Source: Cunninghamella blakesleeana (Eukaryota > Mucoromycota > Mucoromycetes > Mucorales > Cunninghamellaceae). Taken from it: 64,000 nucleotides of DNA. Every line of letters starts with the position of its first letter. The stretch's first letter is position 1. The stretch is taken from contig JAFCIZ010000005.1 in assembly GCA_017871115.1 (NCBI GenBank), forward strand, positions 2,969,501 to 3,033,500. The letters are read 5' to 3'. The notes under the pieces were generated by a model. The model did no database searches, had not been told where the DNA came from, and saw only the letters and a list, made by a program, of their open reading frames with translations. The translations under genes were made by a program, and so were the position numbers. This document shows, piece by piece, positions 26,898-64,000 of this stretch.

Positions 26898-28553
26898 TTA
26901 TAAATCAAGTAAAAGATCTACACCAGCAGCATTAGTTGACGATGTTTGGGCAGGTGTTCGGATGATATTTTGCTGAATATCAGTTGCATAAGGATTTGTA
27001 GCTGTTGGTTGAAATATATTGCTTGTACCATTAAATGAGAGTCTATGTTTATAAAAAAATTAAAAAAAAAAATTAATATGGTTTACTTAATTGCTGTATG
27101 CAAATGTATATACCTGTTCGCTGCTATACTGTTGTAGCCTAAATCATTAATATTGTTAATAGTGCTATTGTTATTAATAGCGTTGTTATTATTATTATTG
27201 TTAGTTTGTACAATTGATAACTGAGAATTAGAAGCGAGTGTATTGGATGTAGTAACTGTAGATTGGTATAATGATTGCTGAGGTTGTTTTTGAAGCACAG
27301 GAGATAGTGTCAAATATCTAGGTTTATAATGATGAATAAATGTAGTAGGCGACTTATGATAGATAGATGCCAAACTTGAAATATGAAGTAGGAGTTCATC
27401 TAAAAAGGATATATCCAAATTATCAGATTCAGTGGAAATAGATGGTTTATCTGATAGCACAATTGCCTTAGCACTAGCAGGATCTGTTGAAAGCAAACGC
27501 CAATATATATAACCACGGTCACGTAAATCAGGATTAACTGTCTCTTCTGTAGCCCATTTTAACACTTTTGGTACTAGCTCTTGGCCAGCAGTAGGTCGTT
27601 TAATAAATAATTTTACAGTTGCAGTTAACAAAGCCATTTGAACTTCCACAGTTTCTTCCAAAAATGTATAAAGAAAATCGTCTAATAATTCATCAGCATT
27701 TTCAATTCGATCAGCATATTGTCCTATAATCCATATCATAGCTGCTTTTGCTTCGGGTTCATCCAAATTATCTAAATTTTCACAAAGCGTACCAATAATG
27801 CTTTCATATTGATTAGGGTATTTACGGAATATATCCTAATATATATATATTAGTATGAAAAAATTAAGGTATCATAGTTATTTTTCTTCGCCAACCTATT
27901 TTTTATAATTATTATTAATATTACCTTAATTACAACTATTGCTTCTTGTACAACATAATTAACCTTTGTATGGATTAGATCTAATAATGCAGTGATACAT
28001 CTTTCAGTGGCAGATTCAATTTTTACTGCTAATCTACCAATAGAGCGAACGGCTTTTCTTACGAAATCAACATCTACTTCAGTAGCATATTCTTTCAATT
28101 CACTTAGTACTTGGTCAACATTGTTTGCATTTGCTAATCTAAAAATGATTTCCAATTTGGCCAGTTTCACATATATGGGATCGTTGTATTTGCAAAAGAA
28201 GACCTTCATATCATTACGTAAAACTTCAGGTCTACGTTGAATAACTAATAAAATGTTTCTCAAAGCAACATATTGAACTTCAGGACCAGAAGATAGTAAG
28301 GTAACTAAAGGTGGACTTAACTTTCTGCAGAATGCTATAATGTCATTTTCATCCTTCATATAATTCATCAAATACATCATCACTTTAACACAAGTTAACA
28401 CCACCGCTGAGTTTGCGTGCTGCAATCTAGGTGCAATTCTTTCTGCTAACATTTCTGCATCTCCTTGTTCTTGAGGAACATAATACATTAATGCTTCCAA
28501 AATATAAGTTTGTCCCCATCTAATATCGAAAATAAAACCATAATAAATCTTAG

Positions 28554-28595
<42 letters not shown>

Positions 28596-29581
28596 TACTT
28601 ACTCTGAACACTCATTCAAAGCTGCTGCTAATTTACTTGACACTGAATGGTTGAATTTTAATTGGATGCTATCTGATCTTTCAGAAATTTCTATCAAAGC
28701 TGCTACTGCATTTGCAATTACCTAAGTTTATTATTCAGTTCAAGAATGAAAAAAAGAAAGGAAATGTTCAATTTCATATATTTAATATAATGTTGAGATT
28801 TTTTTAATATTATTCTTTTTATTCTACTGGTACTGGTTGGGATGTTTTTACCGTTGGGTTTGGATCGCTTAAAAGGTCACGCAACATGTCGATAAAATGC
28901 TCACTTTCTACCATAACATGATCGTACATATACAATTTGGCAACACAAATAGCGGCAGTTTTACGAACATAAGGGTCTTTATCTCTTAAACAATGACGTA
29001 AAGGATCCACTAAACAATCTACAATTTTTTCCACTTGGATATACCCCATGGTTCGAATAGCTAAAGCACGGATTAAAGGATTTGGATCATCCACGTCTTT
29101 TATAAACATAGTGATAGCCATCATAGCCATATCTGGTTTACTTCGAGCATAATTGATCAAATATAAATACACCATTTTTTTGATTTCCAAAATAGGCACA
29201 TTCATCACGTTAAGTATATCTGGAAATAAACTAGACATATCATTTCCCATTGTCATATTGGCTACAATTTTTTTCATCACTGTCTTTTTTCGTTGATGTT
29301 TAGGATCTCTTTTTTCTGAATTTAATTCTGCACGTAATTCTTGTGTTTTCCCTATAAAAGAAGTCAATAAAAACATTATTATAATTAGTATTGTTAACAT
29401 TTTTTTATGTTATTAAATAAAATGAAAAAACAGCAAGATACGTTTTCAATATTAATAAATAATATTAAAAGAATTAGGTTTCGCTGCTAGAGCTCATCTT
29501 TTTATCATCCATTCTTTTTATAATGTAAATTTTTATATTATTTCAATATATACCTCGCTGAAAATATTTTGCATCAGACAT
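26898..29581 (-). CDS. Beta-adaptin large subunit of an AP-1 or AP-2 clathrin adaptor
   Basis: Six exons (29581-29554, 29351-28852, 28721-28603, 28519-27925, 27835-27114, 27042-26898) give 702 residues. The start [10 protein letters not shown], then [60 protein letters not shown] and the blocks around [10 protein letters not shown] form the adaptin N-terminal trunk (to ~590). It matches beta1/beta2 adaptins, which form AP-1 (TGN/endosome) or AP-2 (plasma membrane) and bind clathrin; I cannot decide between them. After ~600 the chain is Asn/Gln/Thr-rich and ends DLLLDL with no appendage (ear) domain. Length is like yeast Apl1/Apl2. The first exon is only 28 nt. Confidence 0.9.
28559..28591. 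repeat. (TA)n microsatellite in beta-adaptin intron 3
   Basis: An uninterrupted TA run inside the short intron between the exons ending at 28603 and starting at 28519. Confidence 0.85.
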
Positions 29582-31834: not shown

Positions 31835-34800
31835 TTAAAAAATATCTTCTTCTGCATCTGACCAGCCAATTGGCTCATCATCATTAAATGCAAAAGTCGT
31901 ATTGAAAGCAGTAATATTGTTTTTAGCCATAGATTTTTCCGTTCCATCTCGATTTTTTTCGATATGTGATTTAGTAGTTACATCGTGCTGTCTATCCTGT
32001 TCCGTTGAAGTTTGATTTTCCTGTTTACTTGGCTGGGGTGATGAGCTTGCAGTGTTATCAATTGATGTTATAATAAAATCATCAATATCGTCATCCAACC
32101 ACCCACTATCTTGATCCCAACCACTATCGTCAGAAAGACCGTCAAATATAAACCGATCACTTGTAATGGAAGGTTGATTTTTTGGTTGTGGTTGTAGGTT
32201 TAAACTATTCGAATTTGTTTGTTCTAATTTAGTTGACATACCTTCTGATATTTCATTTTTAATTTTATTTTGTAAGTTTGAATGAGTATATTCATCGTTG
32301 CTGTCGTTAGCATTATCATTTTGGGATATATTTGTTTTATTATCTTCGTTATGTTTTTGTTCGCTAAATGTTGTATTAGTAGACGTGTCGTTGATCATTA
32401 CACTTAAAGGTTCATCTTGATTCCATTGATCAATACCACTGGTAGATTGTAGCTCTTTTATTTGAGTATCTTCAATATGTGGTTGTCTATTGGACTTTTT
32501 ATTCATATAAATATCATTGATTATTATATCTACCGGTTCTTCTTGATCCCATCCATCGTCATCTATTAAATCATCGTTAAATTCGAATTTGCTACTAACC
32601 GCTGGTTGCTTGTGACAATGATCTTGAGATATATCAACTCTACTTTGATCAATGACATTTGTAACATCATTTTGATCACTTCGTAATTGTTCAGTTTCAA
32701 GCTTGCTGCCAAATTTAGACCGATTTTGTTGTGATTGATTAGAATCAGAAAGCACACTTCCCATAAGGTTGTCATATAAATCAGGACTGTTTTCATTACT
32801 ATTTATGTTGTCATTAATCATATTTTGATCTGCTAATTTAATTTGGCTCAATTCATTGTCATTAGTATTATCGTTTGCTATAGTAGTTTCAGCTGATAGT
32901 TCCAGTCGATTTGGTATATCATTTTCATCATTTTTAGCATTAACATTGTTTATATCCTTTGTGTCTAATTGATCTAGGTTAACATTTTCATTTTCGTCGG
33001 AGATAACGGCATTTTCAATTACTGATTCCAATCGATCCAATACAGTGCTTTCTTCATCACTACTACTACTATTAGCTATTTTTCCAGCAGAAGGTTCTGA
33101 AAGATCTTGTATAGTGTTTTTATGGGCATATATTTCAGTTGATATTTCTAATTGGTCTAATTTAGCTGTTTTATCATCATTATCATTATCACCAGTAATA
33201 TTTTCAGCTATTTGCTCTAGTTGACCTAAGGTGTTATTTTCACTGACAACATCGTCTATATTACATTTTATTGCTAAATGTTCTTTGCTTAATTCAGTTA
33301 TTTTATTATCATTGTTGGTGATACTAGGTTCAGTTATTGATTCTGGTTGATCTAAGACGCTACTTTCATTGACAATATCATCTACATTATTTCCAATAAC
33401 TAATTTTTTATCCAACCCAATATTGTTATCATCATTATGGATAATACTATTTTCACCTATAGCTTGTAAATTATCTACATTAACGCTTTTATTATCATTG
33501 CAAATATTGCTGTTTTCGGCTGCTGGTTGCAATTGGTCCTCTTTAATACCTTCTTTACAATTATCAATAGTATTATTTTTATTTGGCAATACTGACTGAT
33601 TCATATCTATAGCTTCATTTTCTAATGCATGATCTAATCCAATTCCATCATCAAACGGTTGTAAGTGTTGATTAGGATCATATAATCCTTGCTCTAAAAG
33701 GTTCATAGCGTGATCATATTGATTATTTTCCAAAACATTTGTATTTGATTGATTACGACCGCTAACAGCATCGTCCATTATACCACATAAGTCCATATTA
33801 TCACTCGTTATTACTTGCTTTTCTAACTTATCAGGTTCATTTGTTTTTAATATATCGTTTTTTTCACTGTCTTTATTCGTATTTAAATTCATTGAATTTA
33901 AACAATTGTGTTTATCGTTTTCAATATCTTTTTCTAGTTTAGTGTCGTCCTGTTGAAGTTGGTTATCAATTGTTGACTGATTTTCCTCTTTTGTTTCTTG
34001 TTGCTTGATTTTTTTATTACTGTTCATACTTTCAATAATAGTATCCAAAGGTTCAGATTCGTCCCAGCCATCCTCTAGAAGCCTGTTATCGTCAAATTTA
34101 AAAATGTTACTGATTGCAGATTGTTGTTGTTGGTTATCAAATACATTTTCAGTGAGTCTTTCTTCATTTTTTATATCGACTGAATCATTGCCACTTTCGC
34201 TATTTCTAACTAAGTCCAACGAATTTGGTACATCATGATTGTTACTACCTAAATCACTATCAATGCTAGTTTCATTTTCTAAAGATATTATTTGTTGCAG
34301 ACCGGTATGTTCTTGAGAATGTGAAGAAGGTGTTCGATTAACTTCATAAGACAAATGAACATCATCCTCTAAAATAAAAATATTAACATTAATATTCCTT
34401 TAATTATCAACTAGGTATGCTATTGTTTCATTGTTAATTATATATATTAATTTTATTACCAGCATCAGATATTTTTTTATCTAATAATTCTGATTCTTCC
34501 CACAAATTATCAGCTAAAGCTTCATTAAATCCAAACTTACTACTAACATTAGATAATTGTTGACTACAAAAAGATTTTTGAGGAGAGCTTTCCGTAGGCA
34601 ACAAACTCGTTGGTTCATTATTATTCAGTTGATTATCTGTTATATCCAATATGTCATCTTGATCCCATCCATCATTTTCATCATCCAATATTTCGTTAAA
34701 CCCAAATTTACTATTTATAATTGGTTGGTGAATAGGCTCTAGCAATTCTTTATCGTCACCATCATCGACAGCATCAGCATCTTGTTCTGTTTCTAGAAAT

Positions 34801-37800
34801 TATAATATCAGTTACATTTAATGTTGATATTGTGATTACTATCAATATCAAATGTTCAATCGGTATTGATATTGTTTTTATTTCTTACCAAATAGCATGT
34901 CCTCGCTATCTTGAACACCATATTCATCCATAGGTATTTCCAGAGGATCCGATTCACCCCATTTATCATCTGTAACATCCAAACTTTCATCATAAATAAA
35001 CTTGTTGCTAATAGATTTTTGATGTTGTTTAAGAGGAGGAGATACTATAGTTTCCGAAGCTGATTCAATTTTATTATTTGTAATTTTATGAATGAAATCG
35101 CTTTCTTCTTCGTCACCTGACCAGTTACTATCTTGGTTCCATTCATTAATATCTACTATTAATTAAATTGAAAATGATCCTTAGACAATTGATGTTGGCG
35201 TGCATCTTTTAAAGTAAGCTACATACCAGCATATTTATTACCTGAATCATCGACACCCTTAGATTGATCATCATAGTTAGAACTTATTGAAGAATTTGAC
35301 GTAAATTCATTATTCATTGTATGAGGTTGCTGTGCTTCATCTTCAGGAATGAGTAATCTTTCCAAAAACGATCTCTTTATAGGCTGCTCATTATATGGAT
35401 TTGTTAATGATATTGATCGTTTGGATGATGATTGCTGTGTGGATGTTGTTGGTGAAGAAACTGGTCGATGTACTGCCTCATTCAAGTCACTTGATTTAAT
35501 AATACGTATTGTTTCATCTCGGCGGGGCGTATCGGAAAACAAAGCACATACAAGGTGTGTTAATTGATCGTGAGTAAAACAGGCCAAATCACCACGGTAA
35601 AGAGCGTCTAAAATATCTGCCATTGTCATATCTAACATATCTTTTAACATCCAGAAAGGCTGCCAATGTGGAATCCATTGTCGTAAGGTAACTTCATTAA
35701 CAGATTCTTCATTTTCTACCACCATGGAAAAAAGAGTACCTAGTTGTGCTAGTCCATTAAGAGCTTGAGCCATAGATCTTGAAGTGTCGGCTGCAATATC
35801 GCCCATACCCAAGATACCATCCATTATTTTTTTAAAAACACTGTCAGCAATAGAAATTAAAAAGGTCTTACTTTGTTTTTGAGCAACTACTTTATTTATG
35901 TCAGTGATAAATGTGTTTATTTGATGAACAATGACTTCAATAGCACTTTCAAGCGATATAACTTCTTTGTTCAACTGTTGATGTTGCTGTTGTTGACGCA
36001 AATCCGTTGGTAAACCTGCATGGTCCCATTCTTCAGCTTTACTTAAAATAATATCAACATTTGTCATAAACTGTGCCATTACTATCCTTTCCCATGTATC
36101 ACCTAACCTTTTTAATTTTTCTAATACATCATTATTGCCATCTTGATCCATTAAAACAGCCATATTATTTGCCAACCAATAACAATCATTACGAAATACC
36201 ATAGCATGACTAGAGTGTTGTAAAAATAAATGACGATGAAAACTAGGCATGATAGTAATATAAAGCATTAAAACCTCCTGAACCGTTCTTTTTAAAGTAG
36301 TTGCTGTTTCTGGATATTTATCTAGTTCAGAAGAGAGAAGTTGAATTTCTTGAATTGCCTGTTGTATCATTGTTAATAAAACCCTCGGTGTTTGTGTGAT
36401 CTTTCCAAGGTCACTACGCTCTTCTGCATCATACACTTTTCTTAACATAATTTTCCTTGCGTCATTCAAAAGTATAGATCGTCGTTGATGTGCTACATGA
36501 TGGTCAAAATTTTTGGCATATCTTCCTAAAGGTAAATCAGTAATATCCTGTGAAAGATGTGTATAATCCACCGCCCATTGATTTTCAAAGTTAATTGCTG
36601 TTTTAGCCAAAATATCTAAGTCATTTAACGCGATGGGTAAATCCGAAAGTGAAATATGTGTCAATGAGACAGTTGGTACCATGGCTTTAGTAACAAGTTT
36701 GTCTAGTACATAAGGTAATAGAAGGTGCCCAAAAAGCTGTTGTAAGGATTTTAATGAGGAGCAGATATCATTGTTTTCAGTATTATTAAACATGCCATTG
36801 AAAATAAACTTTAATATCAAATCAGTATGTTGTAATAATTTTTCCGCATCAGTGCATCGATCATGGTGTCTTTTAATTGAATTAGCCCCATCATCATTGC
36901 TAGTACTAGGAAGATATTCTACAACATAAAGAAGAGACATTATTTGGCAATTGTCCTCTTCTTTTTTATCAATGGACAACTGAATAGAAGGACCAGAAGT
37001 TCTTTGTATTGATAAAAATGGATCAATAAAATATTTAATTATTTGGCGTTGAATAGAAGCTAATTCTGAATGCTGTATATCAAGTAAAATAGTTGCACGT
37101 AGCAAATCACTTAAATAGAACGTCGTATTATTTAATTTTATAGATGACAAAATAGTGATAGAATTTTGAAAGTTACTAGAAAATTTGGTATTACTATTGC
37201 TATCTGCATATTTATTATCAAAAACCACACATTTTTCCAAACCATCATGAACCAAAGATGTAATCCATTGGCGATATTGAGTAGCTTTTTGTTTTAATCC
37301 TTGCCAAGCAATAATAGATTCGTTTTTTTCTACAGCATCTATTTGTTTTATGATTAAAAAGATTTGCTGTATTGCCTCCTCCATCTTATTCTGTTGTTGT
37401 TGTTGTTGTGAAGTAAGAATGTTATAAACAGTGTCCAAGTGTTGAGATACTTTTATTAATTGTTGTAAACCAGTAATTGTTTGTTCACAGTTTTCAAACT
37501 TTGATTGTGTTGTAAGATAATTTGAGGTTATAGTTTTAGGAATAATCTTAGCATCATGTAAAAGAATATTATGACTAGATGAAAGTGCATCTTGAATTTT
37601 TTCTTGCCCTTGCTTATATACTTTTTCATTTCCTTTATAAACAGAAAAAAAAGGATCAAGTTGGCTTTTAACATTTCTTTGTAAAGACTGTCCAAGTTGA
37701 CTAGACGTGTCTTGTAAAGTAGTTAGTGCATGACCAAGATTGGTGATATTAACTTCATTACTAAATGATTCTTGCTTAAATAAATTATTTATATAATCAT

Positions 37801-37831
37801 TTTGGCTACTCCTATGAAAATTAGATGCCAT
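31835..37831 (-). CDS. ZW10/DSL1-type vesicle tether with very long acidic Trp-motif tail
   Basis: Four exons (37831-35227, 35155-34889, 34792-34460, 34368-31835) join in frame to 1,912 residues. Residues 1-~781 are a helical ZW10-type protein; the C-terminal block WIPHWQPFWMLKDMLDMTMA followed by DILDALYRGD and LVCALFSDTPRRDETIRII matches the end of ZW10. ZW10/Dsl1 is a subunit of the Dsl1/NRZ complex tethering COPI vesicles at the ER. The remaining ~1,130 residues are Asn/Asp/Glu-rich and contain 11 Trp, all in acidic motifs such as GWDQDD, GWDESEPLD and GWDQEEPVD, often preceded by SKFxFN. Yeast Dsl1 binds COPI through an acidic Trp loop, so a COPI-binding role is inferred. The exon 1 donor could instead lie 15 nt upstream. 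Confidence 0.82.
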
Positions 37832-55619: not shown

Positions 55620-56378
55620 TTATATGGTAAATACAACAGCTAGTAAGTGATGGTCAGTCCATTCAGAAGGTAGGTAAGCCAGTAGAGTGTTTATCAAGTC
55701 CTCTTTTAAATTACTAGAGATAAAGATATAATCAATAGTGGATCTAGTACGACCTCTTTTAAAAGTTGACATAGGTTTGTACATACAATCAGAGCTATTG
55801 TTATTGGCACTAAATGCATCTATGTAATTAGTCAGTAGGTGCTGTATCCATGGTTGATGATCGCAATAGGAATAATGACGATGGTCATATATATGTATAT
55901 TGAAATCACCAAGAATCATATGCTTGTTCGGTAAAGGAGGAGCTATAACTTGTGGGTTATCTAAGATACTGTTATAGAAAGGAATTCTTTGATCTCGATT
56001 TGCCGGAGCATAGATATTAGTTATGTAGCACAGCTGTTGATTATCTTCTGTAGAGATGATAGTACCAGCTGTGATTCTTTCGTCCAGACTAATACTTTGG
56101 TCTATAATAGTCAGTTTTGGATTAAGACAAATAATTGCTGTATATTTAGAAAATAAGTAACAAGTATTTGGAAAAAGGTAACGTAGAGTTCGTAAATCAG
56201 ATGGAGATAGATGATTATGTTTCGAAGAAGCAGTTAGTTCTTGTAGACATAATACATCGGCTTGAGGATGAATACGTGAACGTAAAAAACGCGAGTATTC
56301 TTTTTGTGTTCGAGGGTTGTTGGATTTGAGTACACTACGTGCATTCAGAGAGGAAATATTGATTTTTGATAATGTCAT
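55620..56378 (-). CDS. LINE copy 1 ORF2 fragment: AP-type endonuclease domain only
   Basis: 252 codons. It starts MTLSKINISSLNARSV and holds the endonuclease motifs LCLQELTAS, MILGDFNIHIYD, RSTIDYIFIS and SEWTDHHLLA, i.e. the exonuclease-endonuclease-phosphatase fold that nicks target DNA. The next codons, VVFTI then stop, come from foreign sequence: copy 2 continues with 1,000 more residues here. The ORF is therefore a cut-off ORF2. About 97% of its nucleotides match copy 2. Confidence 0.85.
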   Translation of the reverse strand: MTLSKINISSLNARSVLKSNNPRTQKEYSRFLRSRIHPQADVLCLQELTASSKHNHLSPSDLRTLRYLFPNTCYLFSKYTAIICLNPKLTIIDQSISLDERITAGTIISTEDNQQLCYITNIYAPANRDQRIPFYNSILDNPQVIAPPLPNKHMILGDFNIHIYDHRHYSYCDHQPWIQHLLTNYIDAFSANNNSSDCMYKPMSTFKRGRTRSTIDYIFISSNLKEDLINTLLAYLPSEWTDHHLLAVVFTI

Positions 56379-57969
56379 ATTTATTTGTTTTTTTTTTTTT
56401 ATTTTTTTTTAATATATATATATAAACACAACAAAATTAGATTTAATTCTTATTCACATTGGAAACTTTCTTGACTGAAAGATCCTTTGGAACAGAATTA
56501 TCTTTTTTCCTGTCTAGAATAAGACTTGCGTGAGGGTTTGACATGGATGAAGCAATAGCTAATCTATTCTTTGCTTTTGCCGTAGTCATACGAAGCATAT
56601 CCACCTGATTTGATATTACTTTTTCTTGGTGTACTGACTTGGCTGATGATTTCTTTTTACTATCTATGTCCATTGCCATTGTCTCTGGATCTATATCCAT
56701 AGTAGTACGTTTGGTAATGGGAGCATATTTAGATGCATTGAGACCATCTTGATCCATTGTAACTTTGGTTACAGTTACATCCTTAGTATCAACCTCCATT
56801 GGTGCTGACTTGGTTTTATTACCTCCTGACTTGTTCAAGCTGATAATTTTTGCTTCTTCTACGGTAGTTTTACCATCGACCATGTTAGTCTTATGTAAAT
56901 CTCCTACCTTACCTTCAATAACCTTTGGTACTTGAGAAGAGGTATCTACCTCTGTAGTTTCCAAATCTCCTTTTTTTACTTTTTCATCGTTGGTTTGTAC
57001 CCCATCCTTTGATGACTTTTGATTACTAGCAGCCTGTTTTTTCTTACGTTGCTCTTCTTTTAAGAGCTCGTATCTGACCATATCCTTTTCTATATCGCTA
57101 TTCTTCTCTTTGCAGAAGCGAGCGATATGTCCTTTGACCAAACATTTTGAGCACGTTATTTGTTTCATAAGTGGACAATCTTTGCGAATATGGCCAGATT
57201 GTCTACATTGAAAACAGACTGGTGGGGCACCTTTATACGACGCTGGCATATAGCTGTCCCAAAAAGAAAGATAAAGCATTCTTTGAAGTGGTTGATACTT
57301 CTTTGCTTCGTCTGTATCGTTGGTGTCCAAAAGCACCGAAACTTGACCTTCAAAATAACCATCATTGGTAAGTTTTTTAATTTGGCAAACCTTACCATAA
57401 ATGCTCATGGATAAGAAAATGCCATCCAACAATTCAGCTTGTTTTTTTGGAATATAATCCAAAAGCACTCTTACCATCTTTGGTGGAGTTGCTGAATTAT
57501 TTATTTTGCTTGGGCTTGCTTTATAAAGTAGTTCATCTATGATGAAACCTTTTTCAATTGCTTCCTCAGCGTGTTTATTATCCTTGAAATTTATACCTAA
57601 CAGTATGGTACCTCTCGTGTTACCATGACGACTATACGGAGTAACACCTTCTATTTCACCTATTTGGGACTCAATTAGCTTGTAGATTTCCTTATTTGAG
57701 AGCCCATGTTTCTTAGGAAGTTCGAAGAGCACAGAGTCTTCCTCCAAAGCGCGTTGTGCAATTTGTTCTGCCTTATGAATTCTTAAGTGATCTTTAAGAA
57801 GATCATCTTCATACATGACTTCATGAGCAATATTTATTTGCTCTCCATAGATATTTTTATTTTGCATGGCATTAGGTATTCTTTTTTCCATACCTTTCGC
57901 CACTTTTTCTGCCCATGTTTCCCCGATTCCATTTCGAGGAAGATGGTTAGAATCTTCAGTATTAGACAT
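55634..57969 (-). mobile_element. LINE copy 1 (L1-type, 3'-truncated, no reverse transcriptase)
   Basis: A minus-strand non-LTR element with ORF1 (57969-56443), a 64-bp spacer, and the first part of ORF2 (56378 onward). Similarity to LINE copy 2 stops at about 55634, inside ORF2 after the endonuclease domain. The RT, the Cys-rich C-terminus, the 3' UTR and the poly(A) are absent. Most LINE copies are truncated at the 5' end, so loss of the 3' part suggests later deletion or recombination. Its 5' side is only 45 bp from the poly(A) of copy 2. L1-type LINEs of this layout are known in Mucoromycota (Grem-LINE1 in Mucor); the family match is an inference. Confidence 0.85.
56443..57969 (-). CDS. 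LINE copy 1 ORF1: nucleic-acid-binding protein with CCHC zinc knuckles
   Basis: 508 codons, open. Residues ~160-215 have an RRM-like segment (KMVRVLLDYIPKKQAELLDG and onward to GYFEGQVSVLLD). Two CCHC knuckles follow at ~250-285: CFQCRQSGHIRKDC and CSKCLVKGHIARFC (CX2CX4HX4C). The C-terminal third is Lys/Ser/Thr-rich and probably disordered. In LINEs ORF1 protein coats the RNA and forms the RNP. It is only about half identical to ORF1 of copy 2, with the knuckles and the region before them best conserved. Confidence 0.88.
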   Translation of the reverse strand: MSNTEDSNHLPRNGIGETWAEKVAKGMEKRIPNAMQNKNIYGEQINIAHEVMYEDDLLKDHLRIHKAEQIAQRALEEDSVLFELPKKHGLSNKEIYKLIESQIGEIEGVTPYSRHGNTRGTILLGINFKDNKHAEEAIEKGFIIDELLYKASPSKINNSATPPKMVRVLLDYIPKKQAELLDGIFLSMSIYGKVCQIKKLTNDGYFEGQVSVLLDTNDTDEAKKYQPLQRMLYLSFWDSYMPASYKGAPPVCFQCRQSGHIRKDCPLMKQITCSKCLVKGHIARFCKEKNSDIEKDMVRYELLKEEQRKKKQAASNQKSSKDGVQTNDEKVKKGDLETTEVDTSSQVPKVIEGKVGDLHKTNMVDGKTTVEEAKIISLNKSGGNKTKSAPMEVDTKDVTVTKVTMDQDGLNASKYAPITKRTTMDIDPETMAMDIDSKKKSSAKSVHQEKVISNQVDMLRMTTAKAKNRLAIASSMSNPHASLILDRKKDNSVPKDLSVKKVSNVNKN

Positions 57970-58010
57970 AGCTGAAAATTCTATAAATTGTTAACAGTAG
58001 TTGCCGCAAG

Positions 58011-58014
<4 letters not shown>

Positions 58015-58043
<29 letters not shown>
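58015..58043 (-). repeat. Poly(A) tail of LINE copy 2
   Basis: 29 consecutive T on the plus strand, i.e. an A tract on the element's sense strand, right at the 3' side of the 3' UTR. Its far side meets the 45-bp leader of LINE copy 1. Confidence 0.85.
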
Positions 58044-58053
58044 GTATTTAAAG

Positions 58054-58083
58054 CAACACTGCATTACTGTGTAATGCTTGTTG
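58054..58083 (-). other. 3' stem-loop of LINE copy 2
   Basis: An inverted repeat: GCATTAC, loop TGT, GTAATGC, extended by CAACA/TGTTG pairs after a small bulge, giving about 12 paired bases. It lies 11 bases from the poly(A). Several LINE families (for example eel UnaL2) use a 3' stem-loop for recognition by their own RT; a similar role is inferred. Confidence 0.6.
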
Positions 58084-58300
58084 TATTTCTTTATTAGGCA
58101 AATTATAAGCTCCGGTTAAAAATTAAAATAAAATAAAATAAACAAAAAAACAAAAAAAAACTAGCTATATTTTTCTTTTCTTTTCTTTTTCTTTTCCAAG
58201 TTCTTTTGACAATGCATAATTCTTTTTCTTTTTCAAAATTAAAGATCTTCAGACAGCTATTTAAAAAAGTACAAAAGATAATTAAAACATAGATTGTACA

Positions 58301-61300
58301 TTACTGCCAATCTAAGTTAATATCATTATAGTTGTGGAAGACCTTCCATCTTGCTAAAGCAAAATCTGTCCTCCAAGTTGTTTCTTCAAAGACATGATGC
58401 CAGTGTTGTTGCCAAAGTATCAGTAAAACATGTCCTATTAGTACCAAAGTATTGCTGTTGACCTTATTAATACGATTAAACGTTATTGATGACCAAATAT
58501 TATTAAACTTCTCCTGTGGTATATTTTTGGAATAAAGGAAAGCTTTCCAAAATTCCTTTTTCTTTTTACAGTGAAGAATAAAATGTTGATCATCTTCAAA
58601 ATCAGGACAGAAGGAACAAAGAGGAGTCTGAAACTTGGTTGGTATCATTTGATGTAGTCTACAATTTGTTGGTAACTTGTGGATCAATATTCTCCACCAT
58701 ATTTCTATGGCTTTATGAGGAATATCTAGTTGCCAAAAATTGGACCAGTCAGCTTTCGACATTAACGCACCTGGAGTTTGCACCAGAGGTGGATGTTTGA
58801 CAGGATAAATGGGAGAACCTTGGAAGAACCAATATCTACGCAAGGAACTCGGAGAAGCTTTATGCACCATTATTGTATTGGACGAGGAGGACAAAGAAAA
58901 CTTCCATTCTTCTAGAACAGTAGAAACAGGAATATTACGACCTACTCTACTGCTTTGAAAGAAATTGTTTTTAAGAAGAGGATGAATTTTTAGTTGATCC
59001 AAAAGTAAAGAGGATATTATATCATCATACTTTTTCCGACTACGACTATTACTAGGAGGTACTTCCATAAGATCTTTAGCAAACCAATTAGCTGGTATCA
59101 ACCTTTTAATATCTAAAATAGGTTTAGATATTCTAGGTGATTCATTTATTACTAAAGCTTTTCTAAGAGGCAGATGTTTAATTATTTCCCTCGACCAGTT
59201 TGAAGAAGGTTCTAGTGTAGGTACGGATGCTAACATTTTTATCATATGCTTCATCTGTGGCAACTTTCTGAATTTTTTGTTATAATAATGTGGATCAGCA
59301 AGAATCGGAATGACAGAACACTGATTAGTGTAATAGGTGATTAATTGTTGAAACACATTAAATAAAAAGTTGGTGGCATCTGAGGTGATCATCTTATTGA
59401 TATATACCATATGAAGAGCTTTGAACTGATGATTTATATCAATTAGATTAATTCCACCTTGATTCTTTGGAGCGCAGAGAAAGTGGTATGACGGTTTTGG
59501 AAAGAAAGGCACAACATATTCATATACTTTTCTTCGAATTGATGCCAACCATTTTTCAGGGACTATTGTAACACGTAGGATATGCCATAGTCGAGAAAGG
59601 ATCAACGAGTTCGTCACTATAGATCTACCTCTAATTGATAATGATCTTTGCTTCAGCACATTAATATGATTGGTAAGTTTATTTTCAACCGACCATAAAA
59701 AGGTGTTAAGCTGCTCTTTGCTAGAGTAAACTGGATAACCTAGATAAGTGATGGCTGTTGGATTTTCCTTGTCATGCCATGAAATTTGATCTGCCTTGGC
59801 TATCTCTTTCCAGGCATCATGTCTTTCACCTGTTACTGAAAACATGATAGTCTTTTGAAAGTTAACTTTGGCATTACTGGCTTCACCATACAACTTTAGG
59901 ATACCTTTAAGATAGTACCACTCTTTCAAATCCCTAACGAATACTAAAAGATCATCAGCATAGGCTAGTAATTTGATGGTAACTGGATACTGTTTATTTT
60001 CAACTGTTTCCACCTTTTGATCAAGTATAGGTACACCATAAATATTACTTTCACTTAATATGGTACGTAATAAAGGTTCAAAGGCAATATTGAAAAGTAA
60101 AGGTGAAATTGGATCACCTTGACGTAAACCACGTTTCTGATCTATAGGAGCAGCCAACCAACCATTTACAGACAAACATATCTTTGTATTAAAGAAAAGG
60201 TCAAGTAAACAGTTTATCAGAGAGGATGGGAAATGGAAACACTCTAATACTTTTTGAAGGTATAATGGATGAATCCTGTCATATGCTTTCTCTTGATCTA
60301 AGAGTAAACCTATGGAAGTATCATCAGGATTTGTATTTACAGTGTGTTGCATCAGAGTTTGTGTAATCCAGCCATTATCAGATATCAAACGGTGTGGCAT
60401 GAAACCAGTTTGATATGGGTTGATAATTTTTGGAAGACAACAGTTTAACCTATTTGCTATAATCTTTGTAAATATTTTAGCATCACAATTAATCAGAGAC
60501 AGCGGGCGCCAATTTTGTAAGAGGGTACGATCACCTTTCTTATATAATAGCACCATCTTGGTTTCTCTCCAAGAAGTAGGTTGTAATCCATTTAAAGCAT
60601 CATTCATAATCAAACTAAGAAGTTCCAAAAGCTTGGGATGCATACCTAGGATGAGTTTATAAAACTCGAAACCTAGACCATCCAAACCTGGACTCTTGTG
60701 AATAGGACTGTGTTTGATTATGTTTAATACATCCTCTTGTAAGATAGCAGCAGTTAGAAGATTTTGATCTTGAAAAGATAGCTTATTATTATCAGGTATA
60801 TTATTGGTTAGGACATTAATAGCAGCAACATCAACATCCTGAGTGCTATACAAATCTTTGTAATAGCTTCTGGTTTCCTTAATAATATCCTTTATATCCG
60901 TATGGATCAGATGACTTACTGGATTTTGAATAGCTGTTAGGGTCATCCGTTTAGATCTAGTTTTTAAGGTATTGAAAAAATATTTATTATTTTTTTCACC
61001 TTTATCTGACCACATAGTATTGGATCTAATTATCAACTGTTGTGTCTTGACTTTATATAAATCATCAAGTTGATGTTCTATCTTTTCAATTTCTTCCATA
61101 GATGATAAATTTTGCCTGGCTTCTTGTAACTGTTCAAGATCAGTTTTATACTTTTTGTTCTTTTCAGAACTATAAAGTGTGGTACATATCTTTACTTTTA
61201 CTTTAATCTTATCCCATAATAATTGCCTATTGATGGTCTGTAGGTCAATATTATCTATCAGATTATGAAGTACCTCTGACAGGATAGGATAAAATTCATT

Positions 61301-62117
61301 GTCATGGAGTAATTGTGGATTAAATCTCCAAGTACCTGGTCCCATTTGCATCGACTCACTAGTATGTATTGACATAGCTAGTAAGTGATGGTCAGTCCAT
61401 TCAGAAGGTAAGTAAGCCAGTAGGGTATTTATCAAATCCTCTTTTAAATTACTAGAGATGAAGATATAATCAATAGTAGATCTAGTACGACCTCTTTTAA
61501 AAGTTGACAGAGGTTTGTACATACGATCAGAGCTATTGTTATTGGCACTAAATGCATCTATGTAATTAGTCAGTAGGTGCTGTATCCATGGCTGATGATC
61601 ACAATAAGAATAATGACGATGGTCATATATGTGTATATTAAAATCACCAAGAATCATATGCTTGTTCGGTAAAGGAGGAGCTATAACTTGTGGGTTATCT
61701 AAGATACTGTTATAGAAAGGAATTCTTTGATCTCGATTTGCCGGAGCATAGATATTAGTTATGTAGCACAGCTGTTGATTATCTTCTGTAGAGATGATAG
61801 TACCAGCTGTGATTCTTTCGTCCAGACTAATACTTTGGTCTATAATAGTCAGTTTTGGATTAAGACAAATAATTGCTGTATATTTAGAAAATAAGCAACA
61901 AGTATTTGGAAAAAGGTAATGTAGAGTTCGTATATCAGATGGAGATAGATGATTATGTCTCGAAGAAGCAGTTAGTTCTTGTAGACATAATATATCGGCT
62001 TGAGGATGAATACGCGAACGTAAAAAAACGAGAGTATTCTTTTTGTGTTCGAGGGTTGTTGGATTTGAGTACACTACGTGCATTCAAAGAAGATATATTA
62101 ATTGTTGATAGTGTCAT
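58301..62117 (-). CDS. LINE copy 2 ORF2: endonuclease plus reverse transcriptase, one frameshift
   Basis: The ORF2 start equivalent to copy 1 is the ATG at 62117. An A7 run at 62022-62028 (A6 in copy 1) breaks the frame about 30 codons in. From 62083 a second frame runs open for 1,260 codons; its residues become endonuclease-like just after the A7 run. Endonuclease motifs are LCLQELTAS, GDFNIH, STIDYIFIS and TDHHLL. RT motifs are DQEKAYDRIHP (motif A), RGLRQGDPISPLLFN (motif B) and LLAYADDLLVFV (motif C, YADD near 59955). The C-terminus has a zf-RVT-type Cys/His cluster (CSFCPDFEDDQHFILHC). No RNase H domain is seen. It provides nicking and target-primed reverse transcription. Confidence 0.88.
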
Positions 62118-62166
62118 TTTTTATATTTTTTTTTTTTTTTTATTTTTTTTTTTATTTTATTATATA

Positions 62167-62209
<43 letters not shown>

Positions 62210-62225
62210 ATTGCACTAGCATCAA
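62118..62225 (-). other. ORF1-ORF2 spacer of LINE copy 2
   Basis: 108 bp with long T-runs and a (TA)n tract. The equivalent spacer of copy 1 (56379-56442) is also T-rich with a short TA run, but differs in length. Confidence 0.7.
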
Positions 62226-63656
62226 TTACTGAAGCTGTCCTTTAGAAAGAACAGATTCAGTAGAAGCAAGACGTGATTTTCTTCCAGAAGGACTATATCC
62301 CAATGTTCGATTGGCTACTGATGTATTTAAAGTTGAAGAAACCTTGCCTTTGTTCATTTCAGAGAGTTTCATCACAAGTGTATCATTAATATCTTTTGAT
62401 GTATGTTGGTCTATGTCCATTGTTGTTCGAGATGTAATTGGTGCATACTTGGAAGCCAAGGATCCACCAAAAATGTCTTGATCCTTATCCTCATCACTAT
62501 CCTTATCGTTTATAGCCCAATCCATTTTTGATAAAATGTTATCTGAAGTGGTTGTATCTTCAGATGGTGCCAACTTATCGGAGGATTCAATTTTGTTTTT
62601 TGATGAACTATTTTTATTTAGGTCATCCTCTGATTTTTCTTCCTTATCCAAAACCATAAGGTTTGTTGATTTGGTATCGGCTACTTTTTTCTCTTTGACT
62701 ACCTTTTTCTTTTCAACATTGGCTATAGCATCCGTTCTTTGACCTTCTTTCATTTTTTCATAGCTATTTAATTCTTTTTGGAAATCGGCTTCTTTCATTT
62801 TACAGAAGCGAGCTATATGTCCCTTTTCCAGACATCTAGAGCAAGTTAATTGCTTCATCATAGGACAGTTTTTTCTAATATGTCCTGATTGTCTACATTG
62901 ATAACAGACTGGTGGAGCGCCTTTAAAGGTAGCAGGGAGGTATCTATCCCAGTATTCCATATACAACATACGTTGTAATGGTTGGTATTTTACCTCATTA
63001 CCTTCATCGTTAATATCCAACAAAACTGAGATTTGACCTTCAAAGAAACCGTCATACAGCATCTTTTTGATCTCACAAATTTTTCCATAACGATGCATGG
63101 ACTCGAGAACCCCTTCTACTAGGGCAGCTTGCTTTTTCGGGACATAGCTAAGATGGACTCTTACCATTTTTGGAGCAATGTCTGAGTTTGACAATTTACT
63201 GGGACTTGCTTTGTAATTAGCTTCGTTAATAATAATACCTTCTTGGATGGCCTTACTATTATGAACGCTGTCCACAAAGGTGACTTCAATGAAGACATTA
63301 CCCCTCACATTGGTTCCAAATTTATTGAGGGCAACTACTCCATCAACTTTGCCAATTTGCTTTTCAATTGTTCTGTACATTTCCGAGAATGTAGCGAATT
63401 CTTTTTTTGGGATTTCAAAAATGACAGAATTATCCTCCAAAGTTTGTTGAATGATTTGTTCAGACTTGAAAATACGCATATGATCTTTCAAGTGGACGTC
63501 TTCATAAATAACTACTGGCTGTAGTTCTATTCTATTACCCATAATATCTTTATGGGTCATTGGAGTGGGGACCTTCGCCTTCAGGCCCTTTGCGACTTTT
63601 TGAGCCCAGGACTCCGTCGGCTCCATTTCAATGGAGTTTCTCTTTGAAACTGACAT
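62226..63656 (-). CDS. LINE copy 2 ORF1: CCHC zinc-knuckle protein
   Basis: 476 codons, open. The architecture is the same as in copy 1: an N-terminal WAQKVAKGL block, an RRM-like segment (MVRVHLSYVPKKQAALVEGV to GFFEGQISVLLD), YQPLQRMLYMEYWDRYLPAT, then the knuckles CYQCRQSGHIRKNC and CSRCLEKGHIARFC, and a Lys/Asp/Ser-rich tail. By eye it is about half identical to ORF1 of copy 1, far less than the ORF2 endonuclease parts are. It presumably binds element RNA. Confidence 0.88.
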   Translation of the reverse strand: MSVSKRNSIEMEPTESWAQKVAKGLKAKVPTPMTHKDIMGNRIELQPVVIYEDVHLKDHMRIFKSEQIIQQTLEDNSVIFEIPKKEFATFSEMYRTIEKQIGKVDGVVALNKFGTNVRGNVFIEVTFVDSVHNSKAIQEGIIINEANYKASPSKLSNSDIAPKMVRVHLSYVPKKQAALVEGVLESMHRYGKICEIKKMLYDGFFEGQISVLLDINDEGNEVKYQPLQRMLYMEYWDRYLPATFKGAPPVCYQCRQSGHIRKNCPMMKQLTCSRCLEKGHIARFCKMKEADFQKELNSYEKMKEGQRTDAIANVEKKKVVKEKKVADTKSTNLMVLDKEEKSEDDLNKNSSSKNKIESSDKLAPSEDTTTSDNILSKMDWAINDKDSDEDKDQDIFGGSLASKYAPITSRTTMDIDQHTSKDINDTLVMKLSEMNKGKVSSTLNTSVANRTLGYSPSGRKSRLASTESVLSKGQLQ

Positions 63657-64000
63657 TTCAAGAAAAAATGAGTTTCAAATGTATTATGTTAATGTTTAAA
63701 ACTATGTAGTTATTGTTTTAAAGTTTTAAAAAGAAAAAATAAATGAGTATATGATTTTCTTTGAGCGCTTAAAGGTTTATCCGTTGTAAAAAGTGTTTCT
63801 TAAGCGAAAGAGTTTTTACGGTTTTCTTTGAGCGCTTAAAAATTTATCTGTTAAAAACTGATTAAAATTTTTTTTTTAAAAAAAGCAACAGTGTTTTCGC
63901 GCAATTTTTACCTGTCAAATAAATTCTATAATTTTTTAAAAATATTATTTAATATTTTGCTATATTTTAACAAATATAAATAAAATTTTTAATATATAAA
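63657..64000 (-). other. Upstream (5' UTR/promoter) region of LINE copy 2
   Basis: 344 bp to the right edge with no ORF. It contains a 31-base direct repeat (63755-63785 and 63822-63852) built on TTTGAGCGCTTAAA with four mismatches, and a partly inverted relative near 63798-63811. It could be the internal promoter of the element or flanking host DNA; the 5' end is not resolved. Confidence 0.45.
63755..63852. repeat. Two-copy direct repeat with GAGCGCTTAAA core
   Basis: Copies start at 63755 and 63822, 67 bp apart, each 31 bases, differing at four positions by eye. AGCGCT in each is itself palindromic. Confidence 0.75.

Follow-up and report, generated by a model that had tools for sequence, protein, structure and literature searches.

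The best-described relative of the system reported here is the yeast Dsl1 complex (Dsl1/Sec39/Tip20), whose lasso is the only element for which recognition of a coated vesicle by a tether is known in detail. According to PMC4868844 and PMC4206994, the Dsl1 lasso is unstructured and contacts alpha-COP and delta-COP through Trp (tryptophan) motifs, while animal ZW10 (of the NRZ and RZZ complexes) is said to be without an acidic COPI-binding region. On the coat side, delta-COP recognizes the motif W-x(1-6)-[WF] (PMC8015235 and PMC7145657), and the C-terminal domain of alpha-COP binds singleton Trp motifs required for its own oligomerisation and for endoplasmic reticulum (ER) tethering (PMC10866661). 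Here, we analyzed a 64,000-nucleotide stretch of Cunninghamella blakesleeana DNA (contig JAFCIZ010000005.1; referred to as the window) and the ZW10/Dsl1-like gene that it carries, the core of which is followed by a long acidic tail with 11 Trp residues. Judging from the sequence, we consider it probable that the product is a ZW10/Dsl1 tether with a multivalent COPI-catching acidic-Trp tail, an amplified C-terminal counterpart of the Dsl1 lasso.

Gene model and tether core

An earlier note on this DNA, made from the letters alone, had joined four exons in frame, and the join was borne out: it encodes 1,912 residues without an internal stop and ends with a TAA at 31835, and the three introns (71, 96, and 91 bases) are all GT-AG and all in phase 1. 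Exon 1 (35227..37831; this and all other features of the gene are on the minus strand) encodes residues 1-780, which form the tether core, together with the first part of the disordered tail, exon 2 (34889..35155, 267 nucleotides) the Trp pair 874/880 and the singleton module of Trp 934, exon 3 (34460..34792, 333 nucleotides) the modules with Trp 1000 and 1055, and exon 4 (31835..34368) the other six Trp, a Trp-free repeat spacer, the C-terminus, and the stop. The interval 31835..35227 includes just the final base of exon 1, and the ZW10 core lies at 35228-37831. The tail frame contained no stop in 1,132 codons, compared with 43 to 231 stops in the remaining five frames. The shared intron phase makes exons 2 and 3 symmetric, with phase 1 at either end, and because each carries two Trp elements (window 34460-35155), skipping of either would alter the valency of the tail without a frameshift.

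The border between exons 1 and 2 may be off by up to 6 residues, because intron 1 (35156..35226, phase 1) has two possible donors and a TAGTAG acceptor and because two proteins of Cunninghamella echinulata differ there, one of them reading VDDS-DINEW at the place where the window join gives VDDSGNKYAVDINEW. Retention of intron 1 would lead to a stop two residues on (after KYAGM) and to an 870-residue product lacking the tail Trp, which is a possible tail-less form of ZW10.

The assignment of the core to ZW10/Dsl1 was supported by both domain and fold comparison. The ZW10_C2 domain (PF22766; residues 630-775, 35507..35944) scored 52.7 bits against a cut-off of 27 (E 6.9e-14) and was the sole match in the 32-Mb genome (12 contigs). 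The core has a CATCHR rod fold nearest to ZW10 or Dsl1, with metazoan ZW10 as the best match across the entire core, and the tail begins at the point where human ZW10 ends. Dsl1_C (PF11989) reached 28.7 bits in the window against a cut-off of 30 and exceeded the cut-off in P0002, P0003, and P0004, three of the relatives described below, and Zw10_N (PF06248) matched neither exon 1 nor the genome, with the control genomes equally silent. The same genome contains genes for Sec39/NAG and Tip20/RINT1 (PF08314 and PF04437, both above cut-off), as well as for alpha-COP and delta-COP. The gene product is probably the ZW10/Dsl1 component of an ER-resident Dsl1 tethering complex, with Sec39 and Tip20/RINT1 as putative partners.

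The Sec39 frame (L015, G000:C4) opens directly at the Sec39 domain, leaving no room for a beta-propeller in that exon, and the NAG beta-propeller had no match in the genome, the controls being silent as well. The lack of propeller room in this frame fits an idea cited in PMC4206994, namely, that propeller loss goes together with the Dsl1 acidic region. Within the window protein, the nine core Trp have no lasso-like acidic stretch, and the best module score in the core was -6.7; every acidic Trp element lies after residue 868, and an internal lasso of the yeast type was not found.

The acidic-tryptophan tail and its conservation

The 11 Trp after residue 782 (874, 880, 934, 1000, 1055, 1170, 1675, 1717, 1819, 1825, and 1904) stand exactly where the earlier note had placed them and, as it had claimed, in acidic motifs. 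The number of acidic residues within 7 positions of each Trp averaged 5.82, with a minimum of 3, compared with a mean of 2.99 in shuffled tails, 0 of 5,000 of which matched the mean and 20 of 5,000 the minimum. Aspartate and glutamate make up 21% and lysine and arginine 7% of the 1,132 tail residues, and the acid clusters around Trp go well beyond this composition. The note had also counted six or more repeated modules with an aromatic stretch upstream of the Trp; the pattern [FWY]x[FWY][ND][DEG]-x(3-9)-W[DEGS] (the FxF pattern) occurs seven times in the tail, whereas 5,000 shuffled tails contain it 0.0022 times on average, and these modules are real repeats.

Four of the Trp form two W-x5-W pairs, and the other seven are singletons (934, 1000, 1055, 1170, 1675, 1717, and 1904). 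The tail opens with the acidic pair WNQDSNW (874/880; 35097..35141), which matches W-x(1-6)-[WF], followed by five modules with the FxF pattern: FIYDESLDVTDDKWGESDPLEI (Trp 934; 34935..35000), FGFNEILDDENDGWDQDDILDI (Trp 1000; 34641..34706), FGFNEALADNLWEESELLDK (Trp 1055; 34476..34535), FKFDDNRLLEDGWDESEPLDT (Trp 1170; 34040..34102), and FEFNDDLIDDDGWDQEEPVDI (Trp 1675; 32525..32587). The singleton block QWNQDEPLSV (Trp 1717; 32399..32428) has no upstream FxF, and the FxF pattern recurs in FIFDGLSDDSGWDQDSGWLDDDIDDF, which contains the second pair, WDQDSGW (1819/1825; 32075..32152), and in the C-terminal module FAFNDDEPIGWSDAEEDIF-COOH (Trp 1904; 31838..31894). Repeat detection also revealed a Trp-free spacer of degenerate 21-residue (63-nucleotide) repeats at residues about 1341-1613 (32735..33553). 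Its best ungapped self-match was at offset 42 (score 120 versus 103 for the best of 200 shuffles), and multiples of 21 accounted for 7 of the 10 top self-match offsets. Exon 4 is predicted to be nearly all disordered (mean predicted local distance difference test [pLDDT] score 36.0; 776 of 843 residues below 50), apart from a single helix weakly predicted at about 1176-1229. Single modules searched against the genome matched themselves alone and missed six sister modules in the same gene; this search is therefore no evidence for a restriction of the module to this gene.

The earlier note knew of no described ZW10 with such a tail, but the tail is not peculiar to this protein, since all seven relatives retrieved carry acidic-Trp tails. 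These are seven distinct proteins, six from Mucorales by their names plus P0002; Dikarya and other fungi were absent among them, and the survey speaks for these relatives alone. The search with residues 500-780 yielded 4 of 1,386 candidates and a poly-Q-removed alignment 4 of 7,992, one of them a repeat, while for exon 1 none of the 7,987 candidates scored proved to be a homologue, probably owing to poly-Q words crowding the list. The five distant relatives, namely, Absidia repens (P0001; 1,135 residues), A. cylindrospora (P0007; 1,671 residues), Pilobolus umbonatus (654 residues), Phascolomyces articulosus (774 residues, partial), and P0002 (944 residues), all finish with an acidic-Trp tail, 189-902 residues long and containing 3-7 Trp, and each of the seven relatives has at least one W-x(1-6)-W. 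Tail length ranges from 189 to 1,132 across the eight proteins, the relatives' tails being shorter than or equal to that of the window. Since all eight proteins have the acidic-Trp tail, Cunninghamella stands out by length and copy number.

The nearest proteins are P0005 and P0006 of C. echinulata (Mucorales), with core identities of 750/781 and 708/781, respectively. All 11 Trp are kept in both, and P0006 adds a twelfth. Module positions were identical at 220/236 in P0005, compared with 762/896 for the rest of the tail (Fisher, 7.5e-4), and at 195/236 in P0006, compared with 609/896 (Fisher, 5.7e-6); when the module mask was rotated round the tail, 4 of 1,132 rotations for P0005 and 8 of 1,132 for P0006 were as good. 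P0005 and P0006 are both labelled C. echinulata, yet their cores agree at 701/779 positions and the window is nearer to P0005, so that the two assemblies may come from different species.

Similarities beyond Cunninghamella were seen at the C-terminus and upstream of the Trp. The sequence GWSDA[ED]E[DE][IL]F-COOH ends the Cunninghamella proteins (window 31838-31870) and that of A. cylindrospora (GWSDADEELF), and Pilobolus has GWGDADESLF and GWEDEDLF internal to its tail. The A. repens protein is without a C-terminus of the GWSDA type, perhaps owing to a shortened gene model. An upstream hydrophobic pair, a pattern looser than FxF and devised after inspecting the sequences, was enriched in P0007, P0002, P0003, and P0004 (0, 32, 141, and 0 of 4,000 shuffles as good, respectively) and unenriched in P0001 (700 of 4,000).

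Likeness to COPI ligands

The window protein has its family, fold, and acidic Trp motifs in common with yeast Dsl1. In PDB entry 3k8p, a Dsl1 that we take to be from K. lactis, the stretch TESWGWNENQDSDEHDGWDEELDIDV shows the layout aromatic-x-aromatic-N-E ... GWD, as in a window module, and we read it as the lasso because of its composition and because 295 of 357 chain residues are resolved. The arrangement differs: the acidic region of Dsl1 is central (PMC4206994), whereas that of the window protein is a C-terminal tail in which 11 Trp are spread along about 1,050 residues, and the acidic region said to be missing from animal ZW10 (PMC4868844 and PMC4206994) is large here.

The singleton modules also resemble the motifs of alpha-COP, in which a disordered, acidic context surrounds a single Trp and position +6, often also +8, is aliphatic; for example, the window's GWDQDDILDI and KWGESDPLEI are similar to GWDVEEDLEL and GWGEDAELQL of alpha-COP. 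While alpha-COP, itself a coat subunit, has two of these motifs, in the window they are multiplied and reside in the tether. The two W-x5-W pairs, both in acidic sequence and the second in predicted disorder, fit the delta-COP di-Trp motif (ELM LIG_deltaCOP1_diTrp_1, present in Dsl1, Gcs1, ArfGAP1, and Cex1). Spacing of W-x(1-6)-W varies across the window and its relatives (x1, x2, x4, and x5), and delta-COP binding is putative. Against the alpha-COP C-terminus family, the exon 3 frame reached 9.9 bits (threshold 25; E 0.37), a match too weak to be used, although it prompted the alpha-COP comparison.

These likenesses were scored with a block matrix built from the window's six pure singleton blocks and compared with 5,000 shuffles; the test covered the core Trp of the window, every reference Trp, and, for the five relatives outside Cunninghamella, 23 of 25 tail Trp. 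For the alpha-COP chains in PDB, 92 (GWGEDAELQL) and 79 (GWDVEEDLEL) of 5,000 shuffles were as good, and for GWDEELDIDV of Dsl1 in 3k8p, 55 of 5,000; the two animal alpha-COP motifs and the Trp-rich stretch of Dsl1 score above about 98% of shuffles. The own-genome alpha-COP (L038, G000:C6:2637650-2638093, minus strand) has two acidic linker Trp motifs at the places of the animal motifs, the first of which has FKFEE upstream, like the ZW10 tail modules. With the whole module, including the upstream aromatic pair, 25 of 2,000 shuffles were as good for this linker (GPTFKFEEGIDNIDEIGGEWGADDDVFD), 11 of 2,000 for the 3k8p stretch (TESWGWNENQDSDEHDGWD), and 3 and 19 of 2,000 for P0003 and P0004, respectively, both in register.

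Several results weigh against COPI capture by the tail. With the singleton block, the cognate motifs of the own-genome alpha-COP, which bear no close match to the window's block, did not rise above shuffles (742 and 882 of 5,000), whereas an unrelated, non-acidic Trp of the same alpha-COP scored (28 of 5,000), as did one window core Trp (155 of 5,000). Since unrelated Trp score as well, the block test is loose, and values near 0.01-0.03 need care. Of the 23 Trp blocks in the five tails from outside Cunninghamella, only 5 pass at 0.02 and 7 at 0.05. The strict FxF pattern is missing from all five of these tails and confined to the three Cunninghamella proteins; in the whole-module score, P0001 (0 of 2,000) and P0007 (4 of 2,000) scored via the Trp block alone, with no aromatic at the FxF position, and P0002 was weak (101 of 2,000). 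A module profile search of PDB sequences retrieved neither Dsl1 nor alpha-COP, a single module searched against them gave nothing useful, and the alignment in which the Dsl1 stretch first emerged was not significant by itself (i-Evalue 1.4e3). ArfGAP genes gave no positive control: in scans of the plus strand or of both strands, no acidic-Trp motif was seen in the 10 loci covered, out of 17 matches, each locus being about 3 kb long and leaving distant exons outside. The roughly 500-residue stretch from Trp 1170 to Trp 1675 holds no signal, and COPI binding of the tail, the subunit assigned to each module, avidity, and any effect on uncoating are inferred.

Proposed mechanism and rival explanations

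COPI capture by a multivalent tail, as proposed in the earlier note, nevertheless provides the best-supported reading, with one amendment: alpha-COP, not delta-COP, is the likely partner of most modules, because singletons account for 7 of the 11 Trp and just two W-x5-W pairs fit delta-COP. The idea as such builds on an element known from yeast Dsl1, from which the tail differs by its C-terminal position and the multiplication of the signal. Literature searches gave no title on a long-Trp-tailed ZW10 or Dsl1, or on Dsl1 in Mucorales.

In the proposed mechanism, the disordered tail of about 1,050-1,130 residues would be an array of short acidic-Trp COPI ligands, in which the singletons would engage the Trp-binding site of the alpha-COP C-terminal domain and the two pairs the delta-COP mu-homology domain, doing the job of the internal Dsl1 lasso with more sites and a longer reach. 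With the Dsl1 complex anchored on the ER via SNAREs (PMC4206994), about nine separate weak ligands could grip the COPI lattice at several alpha- and delta-COP sites simultaneously, so that a coated retrograde vesicle would be caught and held by many weak contacts and released as the coat is shed. More boldly, the array may also loosen the coat, because alpha-COP self-association uses the same kind of motif. A further proposal, which we regard as rather doubtful, is that the Mucorales tether catches COPI via a multiplied copy of the coat's self-association signal, as a C-terminal element independent of the budding-yeast lasso. The FxF[ND/EE]-acidic-GW module would then be common to the tail and the own alpha-COP linker (FKFEEGIDNIDEIGGEWGADDD), and the tail, as a competitor of alpha-COP oligomerisation, would link vesicle capture with uncoating. 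On this view, the C-terminus would be either the place of origin of the COPI-binding element or the place to which it moved, and valency would depend on module duplication and on the skippable symmetric exons 2 and 3. The Mucorales tails, with few to eleven Trp in an alpha-COP-like layout, would form a natural series for relating valency to capture strength and for probing whether tethers aid uncoating by competing with coat self-association.

Binding of the tail to another partner, such as a motor adaptor or the appendages of clathrin adaptors, appears improbable; COPI would then be one of several clients at most. Such a partner would be in keeping with the FxF[ND] halves and with GWSDAEEDIF at the C-terminus, which look like generic appendage ligands. 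WD/WE motifs resembling a kinesin light chain signal have been described (PMC7503644), and ZW10 in animals has motor-linked roles (PMC4206994), but the protein is orthologous to a COPI tether that in yeast uses the same motif class to bind the coat (PMC4868844 and PMC4206994). The closest-scoring outside motifs, moreover, were those of alpha-COP and Dsl1. Kinesin light chains are not known from fungi, which also counts against this partner. Also improbable is a mostly neutral low-complexity expansion in an AT-rich genome, with only one or two ancestral Trp motifs that matter and the others being copies tolerated under drift. The GC content of the window (0.29), the long Trp-free middle of degenerate 21-residue repeats, the spread in tail length among the eight proteins, and the faster divergence of linkers than of core (68-85% versus 91-96% identity in the C. 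echinulata comparison) all speak for it, whereas two relatives with linker differences of up to 32% retain all 11 Trp, and module positions are better conserved than the remaining tail. The Trp count is not an independent test per site, because the three Cunninghamella proteins are close relatives.

It is very improbable that the gene model is an artefact in which the core stops just past exon 1 and the tail exons form a separate gene. The early stop met on reading through intron 1 would agree with such a model; however, the GT-AG borders preserve the frame three times, core and tail are joined in the two independent C. echinulata proteins and in one A. cylindrospora protein, and all other relatives likewise have their shorter tails attached to the core, as expected if, in line with the earlier note, the tail is part of the same gene.

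Downstream of the tether gene and on the same strand lies an adaptin large-chain gene (Adaptin_N, E 1.1e-49; window 27083-29409), a further vesicle-coat gene adjoining the tether. The window also contains two long interspersed nuclear element (LINE)-like retroelement copies on the minus strand (55620-63674), in which the frame 58301-62083 encodes endonuclease, reverse transcriptase, and zf-RVT domains, and two frames upstream of it carry zinc-knuckle-like CCHC stretches.

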